Source: Terriglobia bacterium (GTDB lineage: Bacteria; Acidobacteriota; Terriglobia; Bryobacterales; Bryobacteraceae). Taken from it: DNA of 64,000 bases. A program made the translations under genes and the position numbers. A model generated the notes under the pieces. That model searched no databases, had not been told where the DNA came from, and worked only from the letters and a program-made list of their open reading frames with translations. The first letter of the stretch is position 1, and every line of letters starts with the position of its first letter. The stretch is taken from the NCBI GenBank assembly GCA_020073305.1, contig JAIQFK010000001.1, positions 310,001-374,000 of the forward strand, written 5' to 3'. Below are positions 50,517 through 62,740 of this stretch, in pieces.

Positions 50517-51326
50517 GTGCCCGAACCAGAAACCTCTGCAGCACCAGTCATCATCATCAAGAAAAAACAGAACCACGGCGGCCATCACGGGGGAGCGTGG
50601 AAGGTAGCTTATGCCGACTTTGTCACGGCGATGATGGCGCTGTTTATCGTACTCTGGCTCCTCAGCACCAGCGAAAAGGTGAAAAAAGCGGTGTCCAGCT
50701 ATTTCAAAGATCCCACGGGTAACGGCAAGCTGATGGGCAGCACCATGGCCGGCACGGGCGAGAGCGTCAGCGTCACCAAAGATGACATGGGCAAGCTGAA
50801 AGACAAGCTGGAACAGGCCATGAAGACCATGCCGCAATTCCAGCAGATGAAGGACAACGTCGAGCTGACCATCACCAACGAGGGCTTGCGCGTCGAATTG
50901 CTCGAGACCGAGAAAGGTATGTTCTTTGAAAGCGGCAACGCTCATCCTACGGACCGGGGAGAGGAACTGCTGGTCCGGCTCGCCGCGGAGCTGGGCAACC
51001 TGCCCAACACACTGCTCATCGAAGGCCATACGGATGCTAAACCGTATTCCGGCGATGGCACGTACAGCAATTGGGAGCTGTCCGCGGATCGGGCCAATTC
51101 CGCACGCCGCCTCATGCAGGCGAAAGGGTTGCGGCCCGCTCAAGTCGCGCAAGTCCGGGGATTTGCCGACCAGCACCTGCGCACACCGCTAGAACCGACG
51201 AACGCCAGCAACCGGCGCATTTCTGTCATTGTTAAATACCTCGACGCGCCCAAAACCGCAGCCGCAAAGGAACAACCGCCGCCAGCGAACGCTCCCGCAC
51301 CGCAGCCTGCCAAGGCAGCTCATTAG
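50517..51326 (+). CDS. motB: Motor stator protein MotB
   Basis: 269 residues from GTG 50517, 2 bases after the motA stop. A Lys/His-rich N terminus precedes the single membrane helix with the proton-carrying Asp D34 in A-Y-A-D-F-V-T-A-M-M. The C-terminal half is an OmpA-like peptidoglycan-binding domain (I-E-G-H-T-D-A, N-W-E-L-S-A-D-R-A, N-R-R-I-S-V-I-V). It anchors the stator to the cell wall. The tail is Pro/Ala-rich. The pair may drive a flagellum encoded elsewhere. Confidence 0.95.
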   Translation: MPEPETSAAPVIIIKKKQNHGGHHGGAWKVAYADFVTAMMALFIVLWLLSTSEKVKKAVSSYFKDPTGNGKLMGSTMAGTGESVSVTKDDMGKLKDKLEQAMKTMPQFQQMKDNVELTITNEGLRVELLETEKGMFFESGNAHPTDRGEELLVRLAAELGNLPNTLLIEGHTDAKPYSGDGTYSNWELSADRANSARRLMQAKGLRPAQVAQVRGFADQHLRTPLEPTNASNRRISVIVKYLDAPKTAAAKEQPPPANAPAPQPAKAAH

Positions 51327-51357
51327 CTGGCCTAGCCCAATAGCATCGAGAAGTCTT

Positions 51358-52533
51358 TTACGTCCGGCAGTGCTGGCTCTCGCGCGGCGCCTCATAATGC
51401 ACGCCCAGATGCGGCGTCTCCAGCCGCTTGTGTCCTTGGGTGCGCGAGGTCAAACAACTTTCGAGAATCCCGCTCACGATGAGCGTGCGCTCCACCGGAT
51501 AGGGCGCTCTCCCGGAAGCGAACATCTCCTCGACCTTACCGATCAGGCACGCCGAGTACGTCACATTGGGCACGGGCGTCAATAGGAACTGCGTCGATTG
51601 CCTGCCCAACCCTTTCACGCGCGCCGCAAAATTGAAGTCCGCCACTGCGCCGTTCAACATCAGCAGCGTGGCCTTGAGGCCGTCCGCGTACTCAATGAAA
51701 TAAGCCCATGGATTCCGGGCCAGCCTGGTCAGTTCGCCGTTCGAAACCAGGTCCTGCGTGCGGCCATCTTTGACCGTGAGCCCTTGCGGCGTATCGCTGC
51801 GCGAGAGCGCCGCCCTCAGCAGTTCCTTCGACCAGCGGCCTGCTTCACCCGCTTTCCACACGGCGTCGTCTTCGACCAACTGCACGGCCTTGACGCCCGT
51901 CTCGCCACCCTTGCGCCGCTCTACCATGCATTGGAGCGCCTCGAGCGCGTGGTAATCCATGGCGTCCGACTCGCCCTCTCCCACCATGAGCGCTTCTTCG
52001 ATTTCGCAACCGAGCGGCAATTCAATATCCGGCAGACGCCAGGTTACCGGCAACGACGATCCAGCCAGCACCGGAAAATGCAGCCGCCTGGAAGCATCAA
52101 CCATCCAACGGGCTTTCTCGAAGTTGTATGAAAGGTTCTTGTCGTTGAAGATGGGCACGGCGCGTCCGTCTTTTTCAAACACCTCTACGCACTGCTTGAA
52201 CCATTCGTAGCGCGGATAAAGGATCTGACCTTTTTCGTTGCGAGGATACTCTCCATGCTCGCCAATAATCATGACCCCATCGACCGCCAGTCTGTCCCCG
52301 CCGCATCGCAGCGTTTCGGCGATGCTCGGGTACACTCGGAATCCGAACTCGAGCGCCCGCGCCGCGCTCAAGTCGCCCTCCGGCTTCTGATCGACGTAGA
52401 GAGACGCAATCTTCATGTCCGGCCGGTGCCACCGCCCGCTATGCGGATATCCCACGAGGATGCGGTCCGCCTCGTGCTGCGCGTGCGTCAGATACCGATA
52501 GACCGTCGTAATGACCGCGATCCGTTTGGGCAT
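51358..52533 (-). CDS. Conserved hypothetical protein, tandem paralogue 2 (no signal peptide)
   Basis: 391 residues from ATG 52533, which overlaps the stop of the upstream paralogue (TGATG). I cannot name the family. Signatures shared with the paralogue: V-D-G-V-M-I-I-G-E-H-G-E-Y-P-R-N-E-K-G-Q, Y-P-R-Y-E, L-A-G-S-S-L-P-V-T-W-R, C-M-V-E-R-R-K-G-G-E-T-G-V and D-F-N-F-A-A-R. The order strand-G-E-H-G, N/S-D-K-x-L-S, then helix and A-G-S-S-L resembles the Rossmann part of Gfo/Idh/MocA proteins (where E-K-P-L occupies that place), but the N-terminal Gly-rich loop is replaced by V-I-T-T-V-Y-R-Y. Probably an NAD-fold or hydrolase-like enzyme; this is inference. Confidence 0.8.
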   Translation of the reverse strand: MPKRIAVITTVYRYLTHAQHEADRILVGYPHSGRWHRPDMKIASLYVDQKPEGDLSAARALEFGFRVYPSIAETLRCGGDRLAVDGVMIIGEHGEYPRNEKGQILYPRYEWFKQCVEVFEKDGRAVPIFNDKNLSYNFEKARWMVDASRRLHFPVLAGSSLPVTWRLPDIELPLGCEIEEALMVGEGESDAMDYHALEALQCMVERRKGGETGVKAVQLVEDDAVWKAGEAGRWSKELLRAALSRSDTPQGLTVKDGRTQDLVSNGELTRLARNPWAYFIEYADGLKATLLMLNGAVADFNFAARVKGLGRQSTQFLLTPVPNVTYSACLIGKVEEMFASGRAPYPVERTLIVSGILESCLTSRTQGHKRLETPHLGVHYEAPRESQHCRT

Positions 52534-53786
52534 CACGTTCTCCAGAAGGTCGATTCTTTCGTGGGCTGGTAACGAATTCCGAGCTGTGGCGTCTCCACCC
52601 GCGTCTGGCTGCGGTAAAGGCTTTCGACGCCCGCGGCGGTTAGTCCCGTTGTCAGCAGCGTGCGCTCCAACGGATAAGTGGGTTTCCCGGTGAGAAACAT
52701 TTGCTCCATGTTGTTGACCAGGGGGCTGAAGAAATTGGCGAGCGTGGTCCGCCCATCGGGCATGGGCAGGTACATCTGCGTAGAGAACGGCTCGGCGCGG
52801 CCTTCTATCCGCGCGGCGAAATTGAAATCCCGCACCAGCCCGCTCATCAGCAACATCGTGCACTTGAGGCCATCTTCGTGCTCGTAATGGTAGGCCACGG
52901 GCTCCTTTACGATGCGCCGCAAGTCATCCACGGTTGGGAAAATATCGTTGAAGCCCGGGCGCGCCGAAGTCAAGGTGTGGCTGCGGCACAACGCCGCCTC
53001 CATCAGATCGCGCGGCCAGATGCCTTCCCGGTACGCCTTCCAGAAACTCTCGCCGCGATACGCCTCTACCCACCTGACACCGCTTTCGCCACCCTGGCGG
53101 CGCTCCACCATGCACTGAATGGTCTCCAGACCGTGGAAATCGTAGCTGTCGACGCCACCGTAGCAGACACACACAGCCTCGCGGACCCTGGCTCCCGACG
53201 GCATCTCGACCGACGGCGTCCGCCACGTGACCGGCAGGCTGGATCCGGCCATGAACGCGAAGCCCATGCTGCGGGACGTCTCGTACATTTCTTTCGCCCA
53301 ATCCCAGTTCCAGGAAAGGTGCTTGTCGCTGAAGATGGGCACGGACCGTCCGCTATCGCGAAACACCCTTACGATCTGCTGGAAAAACTCGTAGCGTGGA
53401 TATTTGGTCTGCCCTTTTTCGTTTTGCGGATAGTGGCCATGCTCGCCCACAAGCACCACGCCATCCACCGCAAGCTTGTTTCCCCCGAGCGTCAACGTTT
53501 CCGCGATCGTGGAACAGGTCCGCATTTCGGGATGGCGGGCCGCGCGTTCGCGGCTCAAGTCGTCTCTGCCGACCTGATCGACATACAGCGAAACCAGATC
53601 CATCGGCGGACGGTGATGCGTGCCGTTCCATCCATAGCCGTCGAGAAAACGGTCGACGATGTGCTGCGCGTGCGACATGCGGAAGTAGATCGTCGAAACC
53701 GCCGCGAGTTTCGGCCGGGACGGGGCTGGCTGCGCCGGCAGCAGGGAAGCGGCTCCGGCAATGAACTCTCTTCTGGAGACTTGCAT
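52533..53786 (-). CDS. Conserved hypothetical protein, tandem paralogue 1 (Tat signal)
   Basis: 417 residues. The N terminus is a Tat signal (M-Q-V-S-R-R-E-F-I-A-G-A-A-S-L-L-P-A), then the same fold as the next gene: S-T-I-Y-F-R-M-S-H-A-Q-H, G-E-H-G-H-Y-P-Q-N-E-K-G-Q, S-D-K-H-L-S-W-N, A-G-S-S-L-P-V-T-W-R, C-M-V-E-R-R-Q-G-G-E-S-G-V. So one paralogue is exported and the other appears cytosolic, which suggests the same reaction or binding on both sides of the membrane. It starts 15 bases after the upstream gene. Confidence 0.82.
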   Translation of the reverse strand: MQVSRREFIAGAASLLPAQPAPSRPKLAAVSTIYFRMSHAQHIVDRFLDGYGWNGTHHRPPMDLVSLYVDQVGRDDLSRERAARHPEMRTCSTIAETLTLGGNKLAVDGVVLVGEHGHYPQNEKGQTKYPRYEFFQQIVRVFRDSGRSVPIFSDKHLSWNWDWAKEMYETSRSMGFAFMAGSSLPVTWRTPSVEMPSGARVREAVCVCYGGVDSYDFHGLETIQCMVERRQGGESGVRWVEAYRGESFWKAYREGIWPRDLMEAALCRSHTLTSARPGFNDIFPTVDDLRRIVKEPVAYHYEHEDGLKCTMLLMSGLVRDFNFAARIEGRAEPFSTQMYLPMPDGRTTLANFFSPLVNNMEQMFLTGKPTYPLERTLLTTGLTAAGVESLYRSQTRVETPQLGIRYQPTKESTFWRT

Positions 53787-53801
53787 TTGCTCTCTCGCAG
53801 T

Positions 53802-54725
53802 CTATCTCTTCAGATCCACCACCGCATAAACGTCTATCGTAGGAATCGTAAACTCCGTCCCTCCGTCAGACACAGCGTAGTCCGTGAGCCGGGCGTCCTG
53901 AATGCCGAAGGCCGCCAGCGTGCCGTGCGCATACTCCCCGCGAACCCGCACTCGCAGCCCGTTCACTTTTCCGCCGCCGTAGTTGATCAGATGGACGCGG
54001 ACCTCGCTGGCATCTCCGTTCAGCCTGCCGAGCACGACGTCGCTCCCGTAGAGACGCAACAGCCGCTTCTCGTCGGTCAGCTTCTGGCGCACCAGCGTCG
54101 CAAAGGCAAACGGATCCGCTGCCTCATCTTTCGGGAAATCCTTCGAACCGATTTGTACATTGAGGTCGAGCTTGGGATCGGCCGCCGGAACGACTCGAAA
54201 CAGCAGGTTGCGCCGGGCCATCAGGTTCAGGACCTCGGCGGTTTCCTCCGAGCCGTCGTCGACGATTCCGATGTTCGCCATCACCGGCAGAGCCGGGCCG
54301 TCGATGCTCTTCAGGAATGCCAGCATCTTGCCGAGTCGATCGAGGTCGCGGGGATCCGGATGAACGACGGCGGCGACACCGTTGGCATATGCCTCGGCCG
54401 CCGCCAGAGCAGCTCTGCGCCAGGGCGCGTCGTAAAAGTACGATTGACTCCCATCGCGCGCGAAGCGCCACCCGTTCGCATTCACCCAAGGCAGGCTGGT
54501 GGCCGCGGCAACGTCCATCTTGTATTCAACACCGGGCGCCGGGAGCTTCACGAACTTCGCCGGGTCCAACGCCAGGGCGTCAAAGCCCTCGGTCTTCCAG
54601 GCTGCCACTTGATCCGGCGGAGCAAACAAGCGCTCGACGCCGGCTTGTTTCACCTCACTCGCTGTCGAGAGAGCCTGATCCCAGTAGAGCCCCGGCAGCA
54701 ACGCGACCGCAAGAACGGCCAGCAT
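53802..54725 (-). CDS. Secreted hypothetical protein
   Basis: 307 residues with a signal peptide (M-L-A-V-L-A-V-A-L-L-P-G-L-Y). The middle carries alternating strands and helices with W-V-N-A-N-G-W-R-F and V-V-H-P-D-P-R-D-L, hinting at a TIM-barrel-like fold such as glycoside hydrolases; the C-terminal part is beta-rich (V-R-V-H-L-I-N-Y-G-G-G). No family named. Its ATG overlaps the stop of the DUF362-like gene (TGATG), so it is coupled to it. Confidence 0.7.
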   Translation of the reverse strand: MLAVLAVALLPGLYWDQALSTASEVKQAGVERLFAPPDQVAAWKTEGFDALALDPAKFVKLPAPGVEYKMDVAAATSLPWVNANGWRFARDGSQSYFYDAPWRRAALAAAEAYANGVAAVVHPDPRDLDRLGKMLAFLKSIDGPALPVMANIGIVDDGSEETAEVLNLMARRNLLFRVVPAADPKLDLNVQIGSKDFPKDEAADPFAFATLVRQKLTDEKRLLRLYGSDVVLGRLNGDASEVRVHLINYGGGKVNGLRVRVRGEYAHGTLAAFGIQDARLTDYAVSDGGTEFTIPTIDVYAVVDLKR

Positions 54726-55855
54726 CAGAGGTCAATCTTTCTGGCCTGGATCTTGCCGATGTCGTAGACACCGAGCCCCAGCTTGGATGCGTATTCAATG
54801 TGCCCGGGCTCGCGAATGAACCGATTGATGCTGGGATTGTCGTCGGGGTTGCGGCCGGTCTTCACGTTTGCCATGGTGCGGTCCCAGACGGAGCTGGCAT
54901 GCTCGGCGGCGCGCTTGCCGTCGATCACGTCGAGCAGCAGCCGGTCGACGGCCACCGGATCGGTGCCGAACATGAGTTCTTTGGGATAAAACCGGAACTT
55001 GCGTCTGAACGAGAACGGTCCGCCGTGCCATACTCCGCGCAGCCCATCCATGATTTGGAGCACGGTGCGCGAGCGAAGCGGCTCGACCGCGGCCAGAGTC
55101 CCGATGAACGAATAGGTGTTCGTTTTAAACCCGGAATGCGAGCGCGCCACGTTCGAGAAACTCCCGTAGGCAATGTTCTTCAGACAGCCGGTGACTCCCG
55201 CCGCCCCGTGGTCCTTCATATTCGGCACATTGATGATCTTGGTGAGCGGTTCCGCAACCAGGCGGGCGAGGTTGGAGCGGGTGTCATCTTCGCCGAAAAA
55301 GTTCACGTCGACATAAGTACCCGGATCGTAGCCGGCGATCGAGCCGCGTGACTGCTCCGCCGTCCAGATGTTCACGCCGGCCGGGACGTAGCGGTCGTAG
55401 TGCACGCTGTCCACCTGGCTGCGGAAGCGCTCGTAGATCCAGATTTTCTCCGGCTTTACCCCCACCGCGCCCAGGTTGCGCACGATCCCCGCGACCACCT
55501 CGGGCGTTGACATGATAGCGGGCGCCCCCGAACAGTTGACTTTGATCCCTACGACATCGGACGGAGTGAAGAACCGAGCCCAACTGTCGCGCGCGTCCGC
55601 ATCGCCGGTCAGCGCGCGCATCCCCTGCGCCATCATTTCATGGACCGTGTCGGCGTCCACCTTTTCGGATTGTTCATCGATGCACTTCGCCGCGTGCACG
55701 CGCGCCACCTTGCCTGGATAGGACCCCGGCATGCCCGGATGAGCGGATGGCTGAAACCGGCTCACGACGCGGTATTTCGGCAAATCCTCGTGCAGGGTGG
55801 CGGCAACAGCGGCAGGCGCGGAGGCCGCGGCCTGCAAGAATGTTCGGCGATCCAT
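54725..55855 (-). CDS. DUF362-like exported protein (Tat signal)
   Basis: 376 residues from ATG 55855; upstream frame residues are not signal-like. The N terminus is a Tat signal (M-D-R-R-T-F-L-Q-A-A-A-S-A-P). The body resembles DUF362 proteins: D-V-V-G-I-K-V-N-C-S-G, I-I-N-V-P-N-M-K-D-H, G-C-L-K-N and a C-terminal D-P-V-A-V-D-R-L-L-L-D segment. Related proteins often carry iron-sulphur clusters, but no C-x2-C-x2-C pattern is seen here. First gene of the four-gene string with the two paralogues. Confidence 0.78.
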   Translation of the reverse strand: MDRRTFLQAAASAPAAVAATLHEDLPKYRVVSRFQPSAHPGMPGSYPGKVARVHAAKCIDEQSEKVDADTVHEMMAQGMRALTGDADARDSWARFFTPSDVVGIKVNCSGAPAIMSTPEVVAGIVRNLGAVGVKPEKIWIYERFRSQVDSVHYDRYVPAGVNIWTAEQSRGSIAGYDPGTYVDVNFFGEDDTRSNLARLVAEPLTKIINVPNMKDHGAAGVTGCLKNIAYGSFSNVARSHSGFKTNTYSFIGTLAAVEPLRSRTVLQIMDGLRGVWHGGPFSFRRKFRFYPKELMFGTDPVAVDRLLLDVIDGKRAAEHASSVWDRTMANVKTGRNPDDNPSINRFIREPGHIEYASKLGLGVYDIGKIQARKIDL

Positions 55856-55900
55856 ATGACGATCATACGTCAGACGTGAGTTTCCCAAAAAACGCCCGCC

Positions 55901-58252
55901 CTACAGCTCCAGTTTTCGCAATCTCAGCGCATTCGTGATCACGGAAACAGAGCTGAAGGTCATGGCGGCGCTTGCGATCATCGGGCTCAGCAGCCATCCG
56001 AAGAAAGGATAAAGCACGCCCGCCGCGATGGGGACGCCCACGGTGTTGTAAGCGAACGCGAAAAAGAGATTCTGGCGGATGTTGCCCATAGTGGCGCGGC
56101 TGAGTTTTCGGGCGCGCACAATGCCGCGCAGGTCGCCGCGAACGAGCGTGATCCCAGCGCTTTCCATCGCTACGTCCGTCCCCGTACCCATGGCGATCCC
56201 TACCTGAGCTTGCGCCAGAGCGGGGGCGTCATTGACACCGTCGCCAGCCATGGCCACGGTCCGCCCCTCGTCTTGCAGGCGTTTGACGATTTCAGCCTTC
56301 TGATGGGGTAGCACCTCGGCGTGAACCTCATCGATGCCGAACTGGCGCGCCACGCTCTCGGCAGTCGCGCGGTTGTCGCCGGTCAGCATCACTACGCGCA
56401 CGCCATCGCGGTGCAGGAACTCGATCGCTTCCGCGGCGGAGGCCTTGGTGGGATCCATGATGCCTAGCAACCCTGTGACGCGCCCTTCGACGGCCACGAA
56501 GATCGCGATCTTTCCGTCGCGTCGCAGGATATCGGCGCGCCCCGCGAAAACTCCCGGATCGATCTCCAACTCGCGCATCAGTTCCTGGCTGCCGACGGCC
56601 ACCTGGCGCCCGACGACTCCGCCCGTGACGCCTCTGCCGGGAATCGAACGAAAGTGCTCCGGTTTCGGAATCTCCAACCCTCGCTCTTCCGCGCTCCGGA
56701 TGACCGCGGCGGCCAGCGGATGCTCGCTGGCCCGCTCGAGGCTGGCGGCGAACCGGATGACATCAGCATCGCTCCCTTCGGCCATTACCGACACCACGCG
56801 CGGCTTGCCTTCAGTCAACGTCCCGGTCTTATCGAACACCACCGTGTCGACTTTCTCGAGAACCTCAAGCGCTTCGGCATTGCGGATGAGGACGCCGGCC
56901 GTTGCGCCGCGCCCGGTCCCCACCATCACCGACATCGGCGTGGCCAACCCGAGCGCACAAGGACACGCGATAATGAGCACCGCCACCGCATTAACCAGTG
57001 CGTAGGCCATCCTTGGCTGCGGTCCGAGCGTGGCCCACACAACGAACGCGATCACGGCAATCAAAATCACAGCCGGAACGAAGTATCCGGCGATGACATC
57101 GGCGACCTGCTGGATGGGCGCACGGCTGCGTTGCGCTTCCGCGGTCATGCGGACGATCTGCGCCAACAGCGTGTCGCTGCCCACATGTTCCGCCCGCATC
57201 ACAAAACTGCCCGCCGCATTCACCGTGCCGCCCGTGACCTGGGAGCCCGCCGATTTCTCAGCGGGGATGGGCTCGCCCGTCACCATGGATTCATCGACCG
57301 CGCTGGAGCCTTCAAGCACGAGGCCGTCCACCGGGATTTTTTCGCCGGGCCGTACGCGGAGGCGCTCGCCGGCCTGAACCTGGTCGAGCGCGACGTCCTC
57401 CTCGGCTCCGTGATCCCGGAGGATGCGCGCCGTTCTCGGCGCCAGGCTGAGCAGGGAACGCAGGGCGCTAGATGTCTGGCTGCGCGCCCGCAATTCGAGC
57501 ACCTGTCCGAGCAGAACGAGCGTCGTAATGACCGCAGCGGGTTCAAAATAGACCGCCACCACGCCGCCATGCCCGCGAAACGAGTCGGGGAAGACAGAAG
57601 GCGCGAGAGTTGCGATCAGGCTGTAAAGGTACGCCGTGCCGGTGCCCATGGCGATCAGCGTGAACATATTCGGGCTGCGATGCACCACCGATGCCCAGGC
57701 GCGTTCGAAGAACGGCCACCCTCCCCAGACCACGACGGGCGTCGACAGCGCCAGTTGAATCCAAACCGCGAACGGCCCCGGCAGGAAATGCGCCGCGGCC
57801 CCGCCGGAGATCATTTCGCCCATGGTCATCAGCAGAATCGGAGCGGTCAGGACGGCGCTCGTCCAGAACCGCCGCCTCATTTCGATCAGCTCAGGGTTCT
57901 CTCCCTCCTCCAGAGTGAGAGTGCGCGGCTCCAGCGCCATGCCACAGATCGGGCAGGCGCCCGGACCGTTGCGCACAACGTCAGGGTGCATCGGGCAGGT
58001 GTAGGTAGCAGCAGCCGGTGGAGGAGGCATGGGCTCTGCCACCGCTTTTTCAGCCGTGTACTTCTCGGGATTCGATCGGAATTTGTCGAGGCAATGAGCG
58101 CTGCAGAAGTACCAGGTTTTCCCTCGGTATGGGTGTGAGCCGGCGGCTCGTCCAGGGTCGACCGTCATGCCGCATACAGGATCCTTGGCCGGCTGGCCCA
58201 CAATGGCAAACGGAGAACCGCCTTGGCCGGGCACAGAACTCACACCATTCAT
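55901..58252 (-). CDS. Copper-type heavy-metal P-ATPase with YHS and metal-binding N-terminal domains
   Basis: 783 residues. The N terminus holds a YHS domain (residues ~24-66, [15 protein letters not shown]) and a short heavy-metal domain (~84-110, Y-T-C-P-M-H-P...[10 protein letters not shown]), with no classical CxxC HMA domain. Then eight membrane helices, the T-G-E-P actuator motif (325-328), the metal site C-P-C (430-432), the phosphorylation motif D-K-T-G-T (474-478) and H-P (511-512). It exports Cu(I) or a related soft metal. It lies 45 bases upstream of the DUF362-like gene in the same direction. Confidence 0.93.
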
Positions 58253-58663
58253 CGTTACACAGGGTTGATGTCCGAAACTTCGAAGCGATTCAAAGGGCAG
58301 GGAAGACTGCGAACTTCCTCACAATGGCAGCGGCCTCCGGGGCCGCACTCCAGGGCGCGATTTGGAGTGCGGCTACTGAGAAGCGGTACAACCAGCCAGA
58401 TCCTTGGGTAGGGTGATCGTGCCGATCCATCCTCCGAGAGCATATCAGCCGTATCACCCTGGGGTTGACGATGCTGTTTGGATTGCAATCTCACTGCCAG
58501 ACCTCCGCGCGTTCGCCGGGGACAGGAAATCAACTGGTTACGGCAGACAGTTCCTCCGCCGGATGTTAGGAACTATCCAAACGGATAGCGGGCCTATCTG
58601 AAAGATGAGTGCTGGCGTCCCACAGCCCCTCACCATGCCGTATATTGGTGGGTCGGCCCGGAT
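58253..58663. other. Divergent intergenic region with palindromic repeats
   Basis: About 410 bases between the P-ATPase and the FHA activator. It holds two overlapping strong inverted repeats (58330-58373, separate entry) and a smaller one, CTATCC-AAAC-GGATAG (58573-58588). I see no gene or clear metal-regulator site, and no -24/-12 promoter in front of the activator. Confidence 0.5.
58330..58373. repeat. Overlapping palindromic repeats
   Basis: GCGGCC-TCCGG-GGCCGC (58330-58346) overlaps the longer repeat GCCGCACTCCA (58342-58352) with TGGAGTGCGGC (58363-58373), 11 perfect pairs and a 10-base loop. Both cannot form at once, so they are mutually exclusive hairpins. The second looks like a REP-type palindromic repeat, which I cannot confirm without the genome. 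Confidence 0.7.
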
Positions 58664-60586
58664 ATGACCCACAGGTTGGTGGCAAGAGACGGCCCTCTGA
58701 AAGGCTCGGTTTATGCGCTCGACGACAGCGAGTTCTCCGTCGGGCGAAATCCGTCCAACCGCTTGTCGGTAAGCGATCCGTCCATATCGCGGCAGCACTG
58801 TGTCATCGTTTCGCAAGCCGGGCAATATCAGATTCGTGACCTGGAAAGCCGCAATGGCACCTTCGTCAACGGGGTTCCAGTGCGCGAGCGTGCCCTGGCC
58901 GACGGCGACGAGATCCAGATCGGCAACTCGCTCCTGCTGTTTCTGGCCGAAGAACAGCCCGCCGGTCCCAATTCCACAACGCCGCTGCGCCTGGATGAGC
59001 GAAGCGTCCTCACCGGAGCCACGGTCGTGCTCCGGAGTGAGGATTCCCGGTATCTTCAGCCCGAAAAGGTCGCCACCGCTCCGTTGCCTGCGCTGCGCGT
59101 CGCGCGCGACCTCAAGGCGCTGCTCAAGATCAGTACGGCCATCAACTCGGTGCGAAAGCTCGACGTGCTCGCGCGGCAGTTGATGGAGTGCGTCTTTGAA
59201 GTGGTTCCCGCGGCTCATGGCGCTATTTTGCTGACCGGCGAAAATCAGGAGGATTTCACGTCCGCCTTTTCGTGGGACCGCAACCAGGGGCTGGTCGCGC
59301 CGTTTCCCGTGAGCGCGACGCTGGTGCGCAAAGTGCTGAAAGAAAAGGTCGGCGTTTTGAGCACGGATGTTCTGCAGGACCCCACGCTGGGCCCGTCCAC
59401 GAGCCTGACTCTTTCCGGCACCAGATCGCTGCTTGCCGTCCCCCTGAAGGTTTTCGACCGCGTGCTCGGCCTGATCTATCTGGATACCGGCGATCCGAGC
59501 GCCAAACTCGACAAGGATCATCTGGAATTGATGACGGCAATCGCCGCCATTTCCGCCGTGGCGCTTGAAAATGCGAAGGAGGTAGAGCGTCTGGAGGATG
59601 AGAACCAGAGGCTGAAGGCGGAGATCAATATCGAGCACAACATGGTTGGCGAAAGCGCACCCATGCGCACGGTGTACCGGTTTGTTTCCCGCGTCGCGCC
59701 GACCGAGGCAACCGTCCTGATTACCGGCGAAAGCGGTACCGGGAAGGAACTCGTAGCGCGCGCCATCCATCGCAACAGTTCCCGCGCAGAGAAGCCGTTC
59801 GTAGCCATCAACTGCGCCGCACTCACTGAGACCCTGCTCGAGAGCGAATTGTTCGGCCACGAAAAGGGAGCATTCACCGGCGCCGTCGTGCAGAAGAAAG
59901 GAAAACTCGAAGTCGCAGACGGCGGGACGCTGTTTCTCGACGAGATAGGCGAGCTAGCCCCGGCCTTGCAGGCCAAGCTCTTGCGCGTTTTACAGGAGCG
60001 GGAGTTTGAACGGGTGGGCGGAACCCGGCCTATCAAGATCGATGTGCGCATTCTCGCGGCTACTAATCGCGACCTGGCAGACAGCGTCAAGGTGGGTAGC
60101 TTCAGGCAGGATCTCTACTATCGGCTCAACGTGGTGTCCATTGAGATGCCGTCCCTGCGGGAACGCCGCGAGGACATTGCGCTGCTGGCAACTTACTTCG
60201 CTGCGCGCGCCGGCGAGAAATCCAAACGCCATGTCCGCGGCGTGTCACCCGAAGCGCGCGTCTGCCTCATCAATTACGACTGGCCCGGCAACGTGCGCGA
60301 GCTCGAAAACGCCATCGAGCGCGCTGTCGTTCTGGGTTCATCGGAGTTCGTTCTCCCCGAGGATCTGCCCGAAGCCGTGCTCGAGACCGAACGGCCGGCC
60401 GGCGCGTCCATCGCCCGGTACCATGAAACCATCGCCGAAGCCAAGAAGCAGGTGATCCTGCGCGCGGTGGATCAGGCCGGCGGCAATTACACCGAGGCTG
60501 CCAAGCTGCTCGGCGTGCACCCCAATTACCTCCACCGCCTGATCCGCAACATGAATCTGAAATCGGTTCTGAAGTCGGTGGGTTAG
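58664..60586 (+). CDS. Sigma-54 activator with FHA and GAF input domains
   Basis: 640 residues. FHA domain at ~25-80 (S-V-G-R-N-P-S-N...I-S-R-Q-H...R-N-G-T-F-V-N-G), which binds phosphothreonine peptides; GAF domain at ~155-303; AAA+ domain with Walker A G-E-S-G-T-G-K-E (355-362), G-A-F-T-G-A (402-407) and L-F-L-D-E-I-G-E; Fis-type helix-turn-helix ([19 protein letters not shown]). It activates sigma-54 promoters in response to a Ser/Thr kinase signal and perhaps a small ligand. The next gene has a -24/-12 promoter, which makes it the obvious target. Confidence 0.95.
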
Positions 60587-60721: not shown

Positions 60722-62740
60722 ATGAGACGCACTTCATACCTACTCCTGTTGGCGGTCGTTCTAACCGGAACGATCACGATGGCGCGTGCCCAGGTTCCAC
60801 CCGCCCAGGATCCGGATAATTCGGAACACGGCGTCGCGCGCATGAGCATCATCGGCGGAGACGTTACGGTTCAGCGAGGCGATTCGGGTGAGCAGACGGC
60901 CGCCGTGGTAAACGCCCCCCTGATGGCCGGCGACGTCATCTCCACCGGGCCAGGCGCGCGCGCCGAGATTCAGTTCGATTCCGCCAACATGGCGCGGCTC
61001 GCATCGGATTCCGAAGTCCGGATGAGCGAGCTGACCAGTAAACGAGATCAGTTGCAGGTAGCGCGCGGCACCGTGGTTTTCAGTGTGATTCGCGCAGCGC
61101 AAACACAAGTGGAAATCAGCACTCCATCCGTTTCCGTGCGGCCCGTCCAACCGGGAGCGTACCGCATCACGGTGTTCGAGGATGGCCGAACCGAAATTAC
61201 GCCTCGTGCGGGAGAGGCGGAAGTCTATGGTCCGCGTGGAGTCGAGACGCTGCGCGCCGGAAACACCATGGTGGTGCGGGGCAACCCGTCCGACCCGGAG
61301 TTTCAGGTTGTCGGCGCTGTGGCGCAAGACGATTTTGATCGCTGGAATGCGGAGCGCGATCAGAGTCTCATGCGTTCCCCGAGCTATCAACACGTAAGTC
61401 CTGAGATCGAAGGGGCGGGCGACCTCGATGCGCACGGCCGATGGGTGACCTCACCTGAATATGGCGAAGTCTGGGCGCCGACGGTCGGCCCGGACTGGGC
61501 GCCTTATCGCTACGGCCGCTGGGTTTGGGAAGACTGGTATGGCTGGACTTGGGTGAGCTACGACACCTGGGGCTGGGCGCCGTTCCACTACGGCCGCTGG
61601 TTCTGGGGCGCCGGGTACGGCTGGTGCTGGTATCCAGGGCCCAGGTACGTCCGGCCCTTCTGGAGCCCGGCGCTTGTTGGATTTTTCGGCTTCGGCGGAT
61701 TCCACGTCGGCGTCGGTTTCGGCGGGCCTGGCTTCGGATGGGTGCCGCTTGCTCCTTTTGAAGCCTTCCATCCGTGGTGGGGGCGAGGCTATTACGGCGG
61801 TTTTCGCAATCATAATGTGCTGGTTAACAACATAAATGTTGTGAACAACGTGAATATTGTGAACACCTATCGCAATGCGCGCGTTGGAAATGGAGTGACA
61901 GCCGTCAACGCGAACGATTTCGCGCGTGGGCATTTCACGACACCAATCCGCGTCAGCCCGGATCAGCTCCGGCAGGCCAGCCTGGTGAAGGGTGCCGTGC
62001 CCGTTGCGCCAACATCTTCGAGCCTGCGGTTTTCGGACCGGCCGGTGACTTCACCGGTGCGCAGTGCTGCATTAAACAATAGCCGCTTCTTCAGCCATAA
62101 CCAGCCGGCCGCTGTGAACCGCGTGCCGTTCGCGCAGCAGCAACAGAGTCTGGCGCAAATCAACCGGCAGGGAAGTGCGGTGACCGGAAATGCCGGCCGA
62201 GGCGTGCCGAACGTGACGCAAAATACGACGCATGTTCCTGTGACGCCCAGCGCTCCGGCGGCGTCGAACTCTGGCGGCGCCTGGCGACGCTTTGGGAATT
62301 CACCGCAAACAGGAAGTCCCGCCGCCCAGCCGCGCGTGAACAGCGAGGCTGCCGGTGGCGGATGGGGCCGTTTCGGAAGTCCGAACGCCGGCGGCGGTTG
62401 GCGTACTACAGGCGACCGCCCGGCCACGGCAACTCCATCCACGCAGCGCTACCAGAGCGTGCCGTCGGACGGCTGGCGACGCTTCCAGCCGGCCACGCAA
62501 CCCTCGACGCCGCGTTACGCGAGCCCCGGATCCGGCAGCAACAGGTCTCTCCAGATCGCGCCTCCGATTGTGCGCGAACGTTCAACGCCTTCGTACAGTC
62601 GCGGCGGGTCTTCTGGCGGCGCCCGTAGTGCGCCAACCCATCAGTCAGCGCCCAGCGGCGGCGGTGGCTCGCGCGGTAGCGGCGGTGGTGGTGCCGGCGG
62701 CCACTCCAGCGGCGGTGGCGGACACAGCTCACATCGCTAG
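60722..62740 (+). CDS. Exported FecR-domain protein with aromatic and Ser/Gly-rich repeats
   Basis: 672 residues. A signal peptide (Y-L-L-L-L-A-V-V-L-T-G-T...A-R-A) precedes a FecR domain (~45-150: V-T-V-Q-R-G, A-P-L-M-A-G-D-V-I-S-T-G-P-G-A-R-A-E-I, S-V-R-P-V-Q-P-G-A-Y-R-I). Next comes a Trp/Tyr/Gly-rich region with repeats of Y-G-R-W-x-W and W-A-P (~225-365), then an Asn/Val-rich stretch and a long low-complexity Ser/Gly/Pro tail ending in Gly-Ser-His. It lacks a membrane helix, so it is not an anti-sigma factor like FecR itself; it is probably a cell-surface or matrix protein. Driven by the -24/-12 promoter upstream. Confidence 0.85.
   Translation: MRRTSYLLLLAVVLTGTITMARAQVPPAQDPDNSEHGVARMSIIGGDVTVQRGDSGEQTAAVVNAPLMAGDVISTGPGARAEIQFDSANMARLASDSEVRMSELTSKRDQLQVARGTVVFSVIRAAQTQVEISTPSVSVRPVQPGAYRITVFEDGRTEITPRAGEAEVYGPRGVETLRAGNTMVVRGNPSDPEFQVVGAVAQDDFDRWNAERDQSLMRSPSYQHVSPEIEGAGDLDAHGRWVTSPEYGEVWAPTVGPDWAPYRYGRWVWEDWYGWTWVSYDTWGWAPFHYGRWFWGAGYGWCWYPGPRYVRPFWSPALVGFFGFGGFHVGVGFGGPGFGWVPLAPFEAFHPWWGRGYYGGFRNHNVLVNNINVVNNVNIVNTYRNARVGNGVTAVNANDFARGHFTTPIRVSPDQLRQASLVKGAVPVAPTSSSLRFSDRPVTSPVRSAALNNSRFFSHNQPAAVNRVPFAQQQQSLAQINRQGSAVTGNAGRGVPNVTQNTTHVPVTPSAPAASNSGGAWRRFGNSPQTGSPAAQPRVNSEAAGGGWGRFGSPNAGGGWRTTGDRPATATPSTQRYQSVPSDGWRRFQPATQPSTPRYASPGSGSNRSLQIAPPIVRERSTPSYSRGGSSGGARSAPTHQSAPSGGGGSRGSGGGGAGGHSSGGGGHSSHR

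Follow-up and report, generated by a model that had tools for sequence, protein, structure and literature searches.

Two adjacent paralogous genes, which we call A and B, lie on the minus strand of a 64,000-nucleotide stretch of DNA from a Terriglobia bacterium of the Acidobacteriota (contig JAIQFK010000001.1, positions 310,001 to 374,000, of assembly GCA_020073305.1); this whole stretch is the window referred to below. The two genes represent a widespread family that is new to Pfam and NCBIfam and has, by structure prediction, the fold of the Gfo/Idh/MocA oxidoreductases. The fold is thus known and not new; the cofactor loop is non-canonical. A and B are probably two subunits of one divergent enzyme of this fold, a heterodimer that would be exported together through the leader of A. 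In the window's lineage, A and B would pair as a heterodimer, or as a hetero-oligomer built from it, and the complex would fold in the cytoplasm and load any cofactor there. The twin-arginine translocation (Tat) system would then export it by means of A's leader, the only one of the pair, and B would travel as the hitchhiker. In the periplasm the complex would probably oxidize or reduce a small polar compound, for instance a sugar or a sugar acid, and the candidate residues for the reaction are Lys132 and His195 of the interdomain cleft. For the family as a whole, the simplest reading is an obligate heterodimer that is sent out by the Tat hitchhiker route in some phyla, whereas others retain it inside the cell.

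Paralogue A (52533-53786, minus strand, 417 amino acids [aa]) and paralogue B (51358-52533, minus strand, 391 aa) are 45% identical over 394 columns (E 6e-124), far above chance, and they are the only two copies of the family in the 7.0-Mb genome (E up to 0.001). Both contain the three motifs that the original prediction had quoted (G-E-H-G-x-Y-P-x-N-E-K-G-Q, A-G-S-S-L-P-V-T-W-R, and C-M-V-E-R-R-x-G-G-E). Paralogue A has the motif GEHGHYPQNEKGQ at 53409-53447, and B has GEHGEYPRNEKGQ, in an extended loop after strand 4, at 52225-52263. The description of the family as unnamed held up as well: scans of A and B against Pfam and NCBIfam (E up to 1) returned no family. PF01408 was not matched at E up to 1 by A, B, or 14 relatives, and these 16 sequences together gave one match to a Tat-leader model and four weak families at chance level (E 0.05-0.22). 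The window's genome itself holds a large canonical Gfo/Idh/MocA set, with 74 PF01408 matches, 73 of them over the cut-off and none at the A-B pair.

The AlphaFold model of B is confident (pLDDT 96.3, pTM 0.94), and Foldseek and VIA-align placed residues 1-381 on Gfo/Idh/MocA enzymes. The best match was GenD2 (6nor; Z 25.6, root mean square deviation 3.4 over 281 residues), with myo-inositol dehydrogenase at Z 25.2; 734 of 999 aligned chains reached a Z of at least 8, and the best 50 listed are, from their titles, what we take to be Gfo/Idh/MocA-superfamily enzymes. Both halves of a natural A-B fusion, L066, were modeled with the same fold, and its A half provides the prediction for A. The original prediction had seen a resemblance to the Gfo/Idh/MocA Rossmann order in the middle of the two proteins, without the glycine-rich loop. 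The B model and an alignment of the family bear this out and extend the likeness to the whole chain. Sequence comparisons agree independently with the predicted fold. When the family profile was run against Protein Data Bank sequences, the only matches were three Gfo/Idh/MocA chains, which were weak (E 0.34-0.36) and had DKHLS aligned to the EKP motif; hhalign, comparing profile to profile, with 30 canonical proteins of the window's own genome gave a probability of 89.5 in local mode and 96 in forced global mode.

We then examined relatives of the pair in 80 loci, the best of at least 399 confirmed relatives from a scan of GTDB genomes. These loci come from eight phyla (Acidobacteriota, Poribacteria, Latescibacterota, Planctomycetota, Verrucomicrobiota, Chloroflexota, Gemmatimonadota, and, with one bin, Actinomycetota), and the window adds one more A-B pair. 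Both types are present in 70 of the 80 loci, a pairing rate that belongs to the best relatives of a B-first query and not to a random sample. In 69 of these 70, A lies upstream of B on the same strand: the genes are separate in 63 and fused in 4, L095 has a broken B, and L089 has the order A-B-B. The sole B-first locus is L083, whose A is very divergent and lies 1.5 kb away. The unfused A-first genes are at most 200 bp apart in 60 of 65 loci, and 0.7 to 2.2 kb apart in the other five (L027, L035, L040, L050, and L095). The fusions (L057:2148-4658, L066:4104-6536, L069:729-3449, and L091:2199-4823) come from three Chloroflexota bins and one Gemmatimonadetes bin. L060, L064, L085, and L088 each have a lone B at a contig end. 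By eye, L088 starts within an A gene, whose C-terminal part is present, and L085:2-1279, truncated at the end of its contig, has an A-like C terminus that runs in frame into B, which makes it a possible fifth fusion. On the tree, the 80 B rows form one clade (SH-aLRT 99.9) and the A rows a clade or a grade. The model of the fused L066 protein as a pair has a pTM of 0.87 for 810 residues, which suggests a defined packing of the A and B halves.

The distribution of export leaders is the second line of evidence. Paralogue A of the window begins with a twin-arginine-type leader, MQVSRREFIAGAASLLPAQPAPSR (53715-53786, minus strand; by eye), at the same position as the leaders of other A genes; B has none. 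Among 62 unfused pairs with readable N termini (those of L035, L043, and L048 could not be read), 21 carry the leader on A alone and 15 on B alone, 5 have it on both proteins, and 21 have none. Exactly one leader is therefore found in 36 of 41 leader-bearing pairs, namely the window and 35 others, with leaders assigned by motif and only some of them confirmed by models. The 21 leaderless pairs belong to Poribacteria, Latescibacterota, Chloroflexota, and Gemmatimonadota, together with L056 and one planctomycetote (L027). Outside the pairs, five of the six genes that occur as a single type, all Planctomycetota, bear a leader of their own, judged by eye. Taken together, the Acidobacteriota (window included), Planctomycetota, Verrucomicrobiota, and Actinomycetota have a leader in 41 of 42 pairs and exactly one in 36. 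The pair's leader state changes 7 times on the subtree of the A rows (67) and 6 times on that of the B rows (65), compared to means of 34 and 33 in 100 label shuffles. Profile models support part of the calls: at E up to 0.05, TIGR01409 matched 16 and PF10518 matched 15 of 46 leader-bearing N termini, and neither matched any of 77 leaderless ones (the A gene of L050, one leaderless end, was left out of this comparison). One leader for two adjacent paralogues, which moves between them and is absent in lineages that seem to retain the pair in the cell, agrees with a heterodimer translocated in the folded state. Since lineages differ in which gene bears the leader, and A and B can be fused, these patterns point to one complex in one compartment.

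Several points weigh against this reading, the choice of loci mentioned above among them. The leader calls come from a twin-arginine and hydrophobicity rule (a regular expression) corrected by eye, and the eye changed the leader state in L036, L055, L076, L080, L090, L092, L099, and L100, set L035 aside, and added L095. Mutual exclusion of leaders within the four leader-rich phyla has a Fisher p of 2.5e-6, a value that ignores shared ancestry and applies to phyla grouped after the data were seen; over all 62 pairs the exclusion is not significant (p 0.098). The leader of the window's A was matched by neither TIGR01409 nor PF10518. Six loci (L067, L068, L093, L094, L096, and L098) have one type only within the DNA examined, and the absence of a glycine-rich loop argues against ordinary NAD(P) binding. 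We considered other explanations. The original prediction had proposed an enzyme type acting on both sides of the membrane, A being periplasmic and B cytoplasmic. This would account for the leader on A alone in the window and would likewise give exactly one leader per pair, but it leaves unexplained why the leader sits on B in 15 pairs, on both genes in 5, and on neither in 21, and why A and B are fused in 4 of 80 loci. A fixed division of labor would not swap sides, yet leader state changes six to seven times on the trees. The two-compartment idea is unsupported, and we regard it as very unlikely. A and B could instead be two homodimeric enzymes for related substrates that are transcribed and inherited together. 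They do keep the same catalytic-type residues, and the six loci with a single type fit such independence. Natural fusions, the near-constant gene order, a single leader on either gene, and the confident model of the fused protein make two homodimers an unlikely arrangement.

A further question is what chemistry the heterodimer would perform, and here the family departs from its relatives. With 142 of the 151 domain rows from the genome collection, and A, aligned to B, the alignment from which B was modeled has 144 rows in all (9 rows shorter than 370 aa or with a stop were dropped). The glycine-rich loop, GxGxx[GA], is absent from every one of the 144 rows, and 136 have no glycine at all at positions 8-16. 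The loop after strand 1 seems longer than in canonical enzymes, helix 1 is followed by a conserved hairpin (GYxxxGxxHxP), and the conserved extended loop after strand 4 bears GEHGxYPxNEKGQ. One explanation for the missing glycines and this extended loop is that the family has abandoned redox chemistry with NAD(P), and that its Rossmann site now works with another cofactor or in a reaction other than a redox one; a heterodimer would be compatible with this. However, other features of the site are retained. At the tip of strand 2, the acidic residue persists in 139 of 144 rows (histidine can take its place in the most distant relatives), and a strand-2 carboxylate that binds ribose is described as a hallmark of Rossmann enzymes (PMC4777477). 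Lys132, encoded at 52138-52140 on the minus strand of B, is kept in 143 rows and was aligned by profile with the lysine of the Gfo/Idh/MocA EKP motif, with DKH as the surrounding motif in place of EKP. His195, near the start of a helix of the C-terminal domain, is invariant (144/144), and Asp190 and Asp193 are each present in 141 rows, 5 and 2 residues before it. In scyllo-inositol dehydrogenase the lysine of EKP and an aspartate and a histidine are given as catalytic, and the K-D-H triad of inositol dehydrogenases has Asp-x3-His, that is, a spacing of 4 (PMC5969746). Export of a folded protein by Tat would also fit a tightly bound cofactor. A departure from NAD(P) redox chemistry is possible but doubtful. 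The retained strand-2 acid, Lys132, and His195 make it plausible that a nucleotide cofactor is bound in an unusual way.

Two other ideas about the site did not hold. A possible metal site of the conserved His17, His20, Glu92, His93, Asp131, and His133, which may lie near the cleft, was rejected, because His20 is lost in distant relatives and His133 is asparagine in the window's B. That one subunit is a pseudoenzyme was ruled out, because the key residues are retained alike in A and in B. The most far-reaching version of the proposal is a hetero-oligomeric Gfo/Idh/MocA-fold enzyme in eight phyla, with a Rossmann site that has been rebuilt without the glycine-rich loop, either to use a cofactor in a different mode or to catalyze a non-redox reaction, and with a single Tat leader hopping repeatedly between paralogous subunits. 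We put this combination forward only tentatively. In the titles and abstract openings of the open-access literature, we found no paper on a hetero-oligomeric or glycine-loop-less Gfo/Idh/MocA protein, nor a precedent for the export pattern of the pair.

In the window, the pair forms the downstream half of a run of four genes, with all four reading frames open on the minus strand. The arrangement given in the original prediction, TGATG overlaps and a gap of 15 bases, is borne out by the sequence. The first gene (54725-55855, minus strand) encodes a 376-aa protein with a DUF362 domain (PF04015, E 3.1e-18), confirming the earlier assignment; it starts with ATG, with an alternative upstream TTG start possible at 55888, and its twin-arginine leader, MDRRTFLQAAA, scored 20.1 bits against a cut-off of 16.7 with TIGR01409. 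The second gene (53802-54725, minus strand) encodes a 307-aa secreted protein with no family match and, by eye, a hydrophobic N terminus, MLAVLAVALLPG. As read from the sequence, TGATG stop/start overlaps of one base join the DUF362 gene to the secreted-protein gene (54723-54727, minus strand) and A to B (52531-52535, minus strand), and the 15-base gap (53787-53801, minus strand) separates the secreted-protein gene from A. A heavy-metal P-type ATPase gene with YHS and HMBD domains (55901-58252, minus strand) lies upstream of the DUF362 gene and ends 45 bp before its ATG. Because it lies on the same strand and so close, the transcription unit need not start at the DUF362 gene and may exceed four genes; a scan of 51200-58700 for sigma-70-type promoters found none. 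Beyond the ATPase gene lie an FHA-GAF-sigma54 activator (58664-60586, plus strand) and a FecR/DUF6600 protein (60722-62740, plus strand).

A conserved four-gene operon was rejected as a general feature, because only A-B is widely conserved among the 80 loci. A close DUF362 type (59-62% identical) occurs in 4 of them (L046, L090, L100, and L022), remote DUF362 genes in L051, L070, and L071, and a fragment in L055. The secreted partner occurs in 3 loci (L046, L100, and L022), adjoining the same DUF362 type. Given the nine DUF362 genes of the window's genome, one would lie within 10 kb of the pair by chance in no more than about 3% of loci, and 8 of 80 have such a neighbor. The association of DUF362 with the pair looks real in Acidobacteria, with only the L055 fragment outside. 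Three loci, L022, L046, and L100, have four further genes no more than about 10 kb from the pair: those for the close DUF362 type and the secreted protein, and those for a TonB-dependent outer-membrane protein and a SelA-like pyridoxal phosphate enzyme, the latter two identified through Pfam in L046 and L100; in the window's genome, SelA-like relatives are located elsewhere. Such a context suggests uptake and periplasmic conversion of a small compound. In a wider survey, using a composition-based gene caller, 96 of 117 operon-like neighbors were scanned. The commonest families, among the first 25 of 116, were creatininase (5), PhyH (5), AhpC-TSA (4), DUF362 (4), aminotransferase V (4), SDR (3), and RraA-like (3). 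Neither these 96 neighbors nor the surroundings of 20 solitary copies revealed a clear substrate pathway.

Solitary copies of the family occur in Planctomycetota. In kinship-drawn genome samples, the family was matched in 11 of 297 genomes of the window's phylum, the window's own included, and in 15 of 246 Planctomycetota. Neighboring copies were present in 5 of these 15 (G297, G310, G441, G444, and G497; the first two are also represented among the loci), and the other ten had scattered copies only, most of them lower-scoring. Most of the scattered copies look like a third, solitary subfamily, which also occurs beside the pair in other genomes. By eye, 15 of 20 copies of this subfamily (L135-L154) seem to bear leaders. 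Planctomycetota can have several per genome, and G306 has 9 family copies in all. A distant relative (32%; L020:11971-13269) lies on the conjugative Arthrobacter plasmid pHiyo8-1, beside a gene for a major facilitator superfamily transporter. In viral contigs, 60 stretches matched a pattern and none was confirmed as a relative.

The A/B family is thus a widespread group that Pfam and NCBIfam miss despite its common fold. It offers a natural experiment on Tat export, with the leader on either paralogous partner and with untagged and fused forms as internal controls, and it allows a test of whether a protein with the Gfo/Idh/MocA fold can function in the absence of the glycine-rich loop. Compared to the Gfo/Idh/MocA oxidoreductases (PF01408; myo-inositol dehydrogenase 4mie/3nt2, GenD2 6nor), the family has the two-domain fold over the whole chain in common (Z about 24-26), as well as a lysine at the EKP position and an invariant histidine near the start of a helix in the C-terminal domain. 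It differs in having no PF01408 match, no glycine-rich loop, DKH for EKP, and both an additional hairpin following helix 1 and a lengthened loop following strand 4. It is also encoded as a pair, whereas the Gfo/Idh/MocA structures reported in PMC5969746 are homodimers or homotetramers. Tat leaders are known for this fold: Zymomonas glucose-fructose oxidoreductase (GFOR) and Caulobacter aldose-aldose oxidoreductase (AAOR) are described as family members with their own Tat leaders (PMC4628093), and structures of the Caulobacter enzyme contain NADP (PMC9795676). The Zymomonas enzyme structures, 1rye/1h6d, were among the fold matches of the B model, at 9-11% identity. Unlike the A-B pair, GFOR and AAOR are single-gene enzymes with a canonical NADP site. 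The closest parallel in export is given by HybOC (hydrogenase 2) and PaoABC of E. coli, described as Tat hitchhikers in which a leader-bearing subunit carries its leaderless partner or partners (PMC4273604). The A-B pair resembles them in having a leader on one subunit only, in the window and in 35 other pairs. In HybOC and PaoABC, however, the leader stays on one subunit, which is unrelated to its partner, whereas A is a paralogue of B and the leader has switched between the two.

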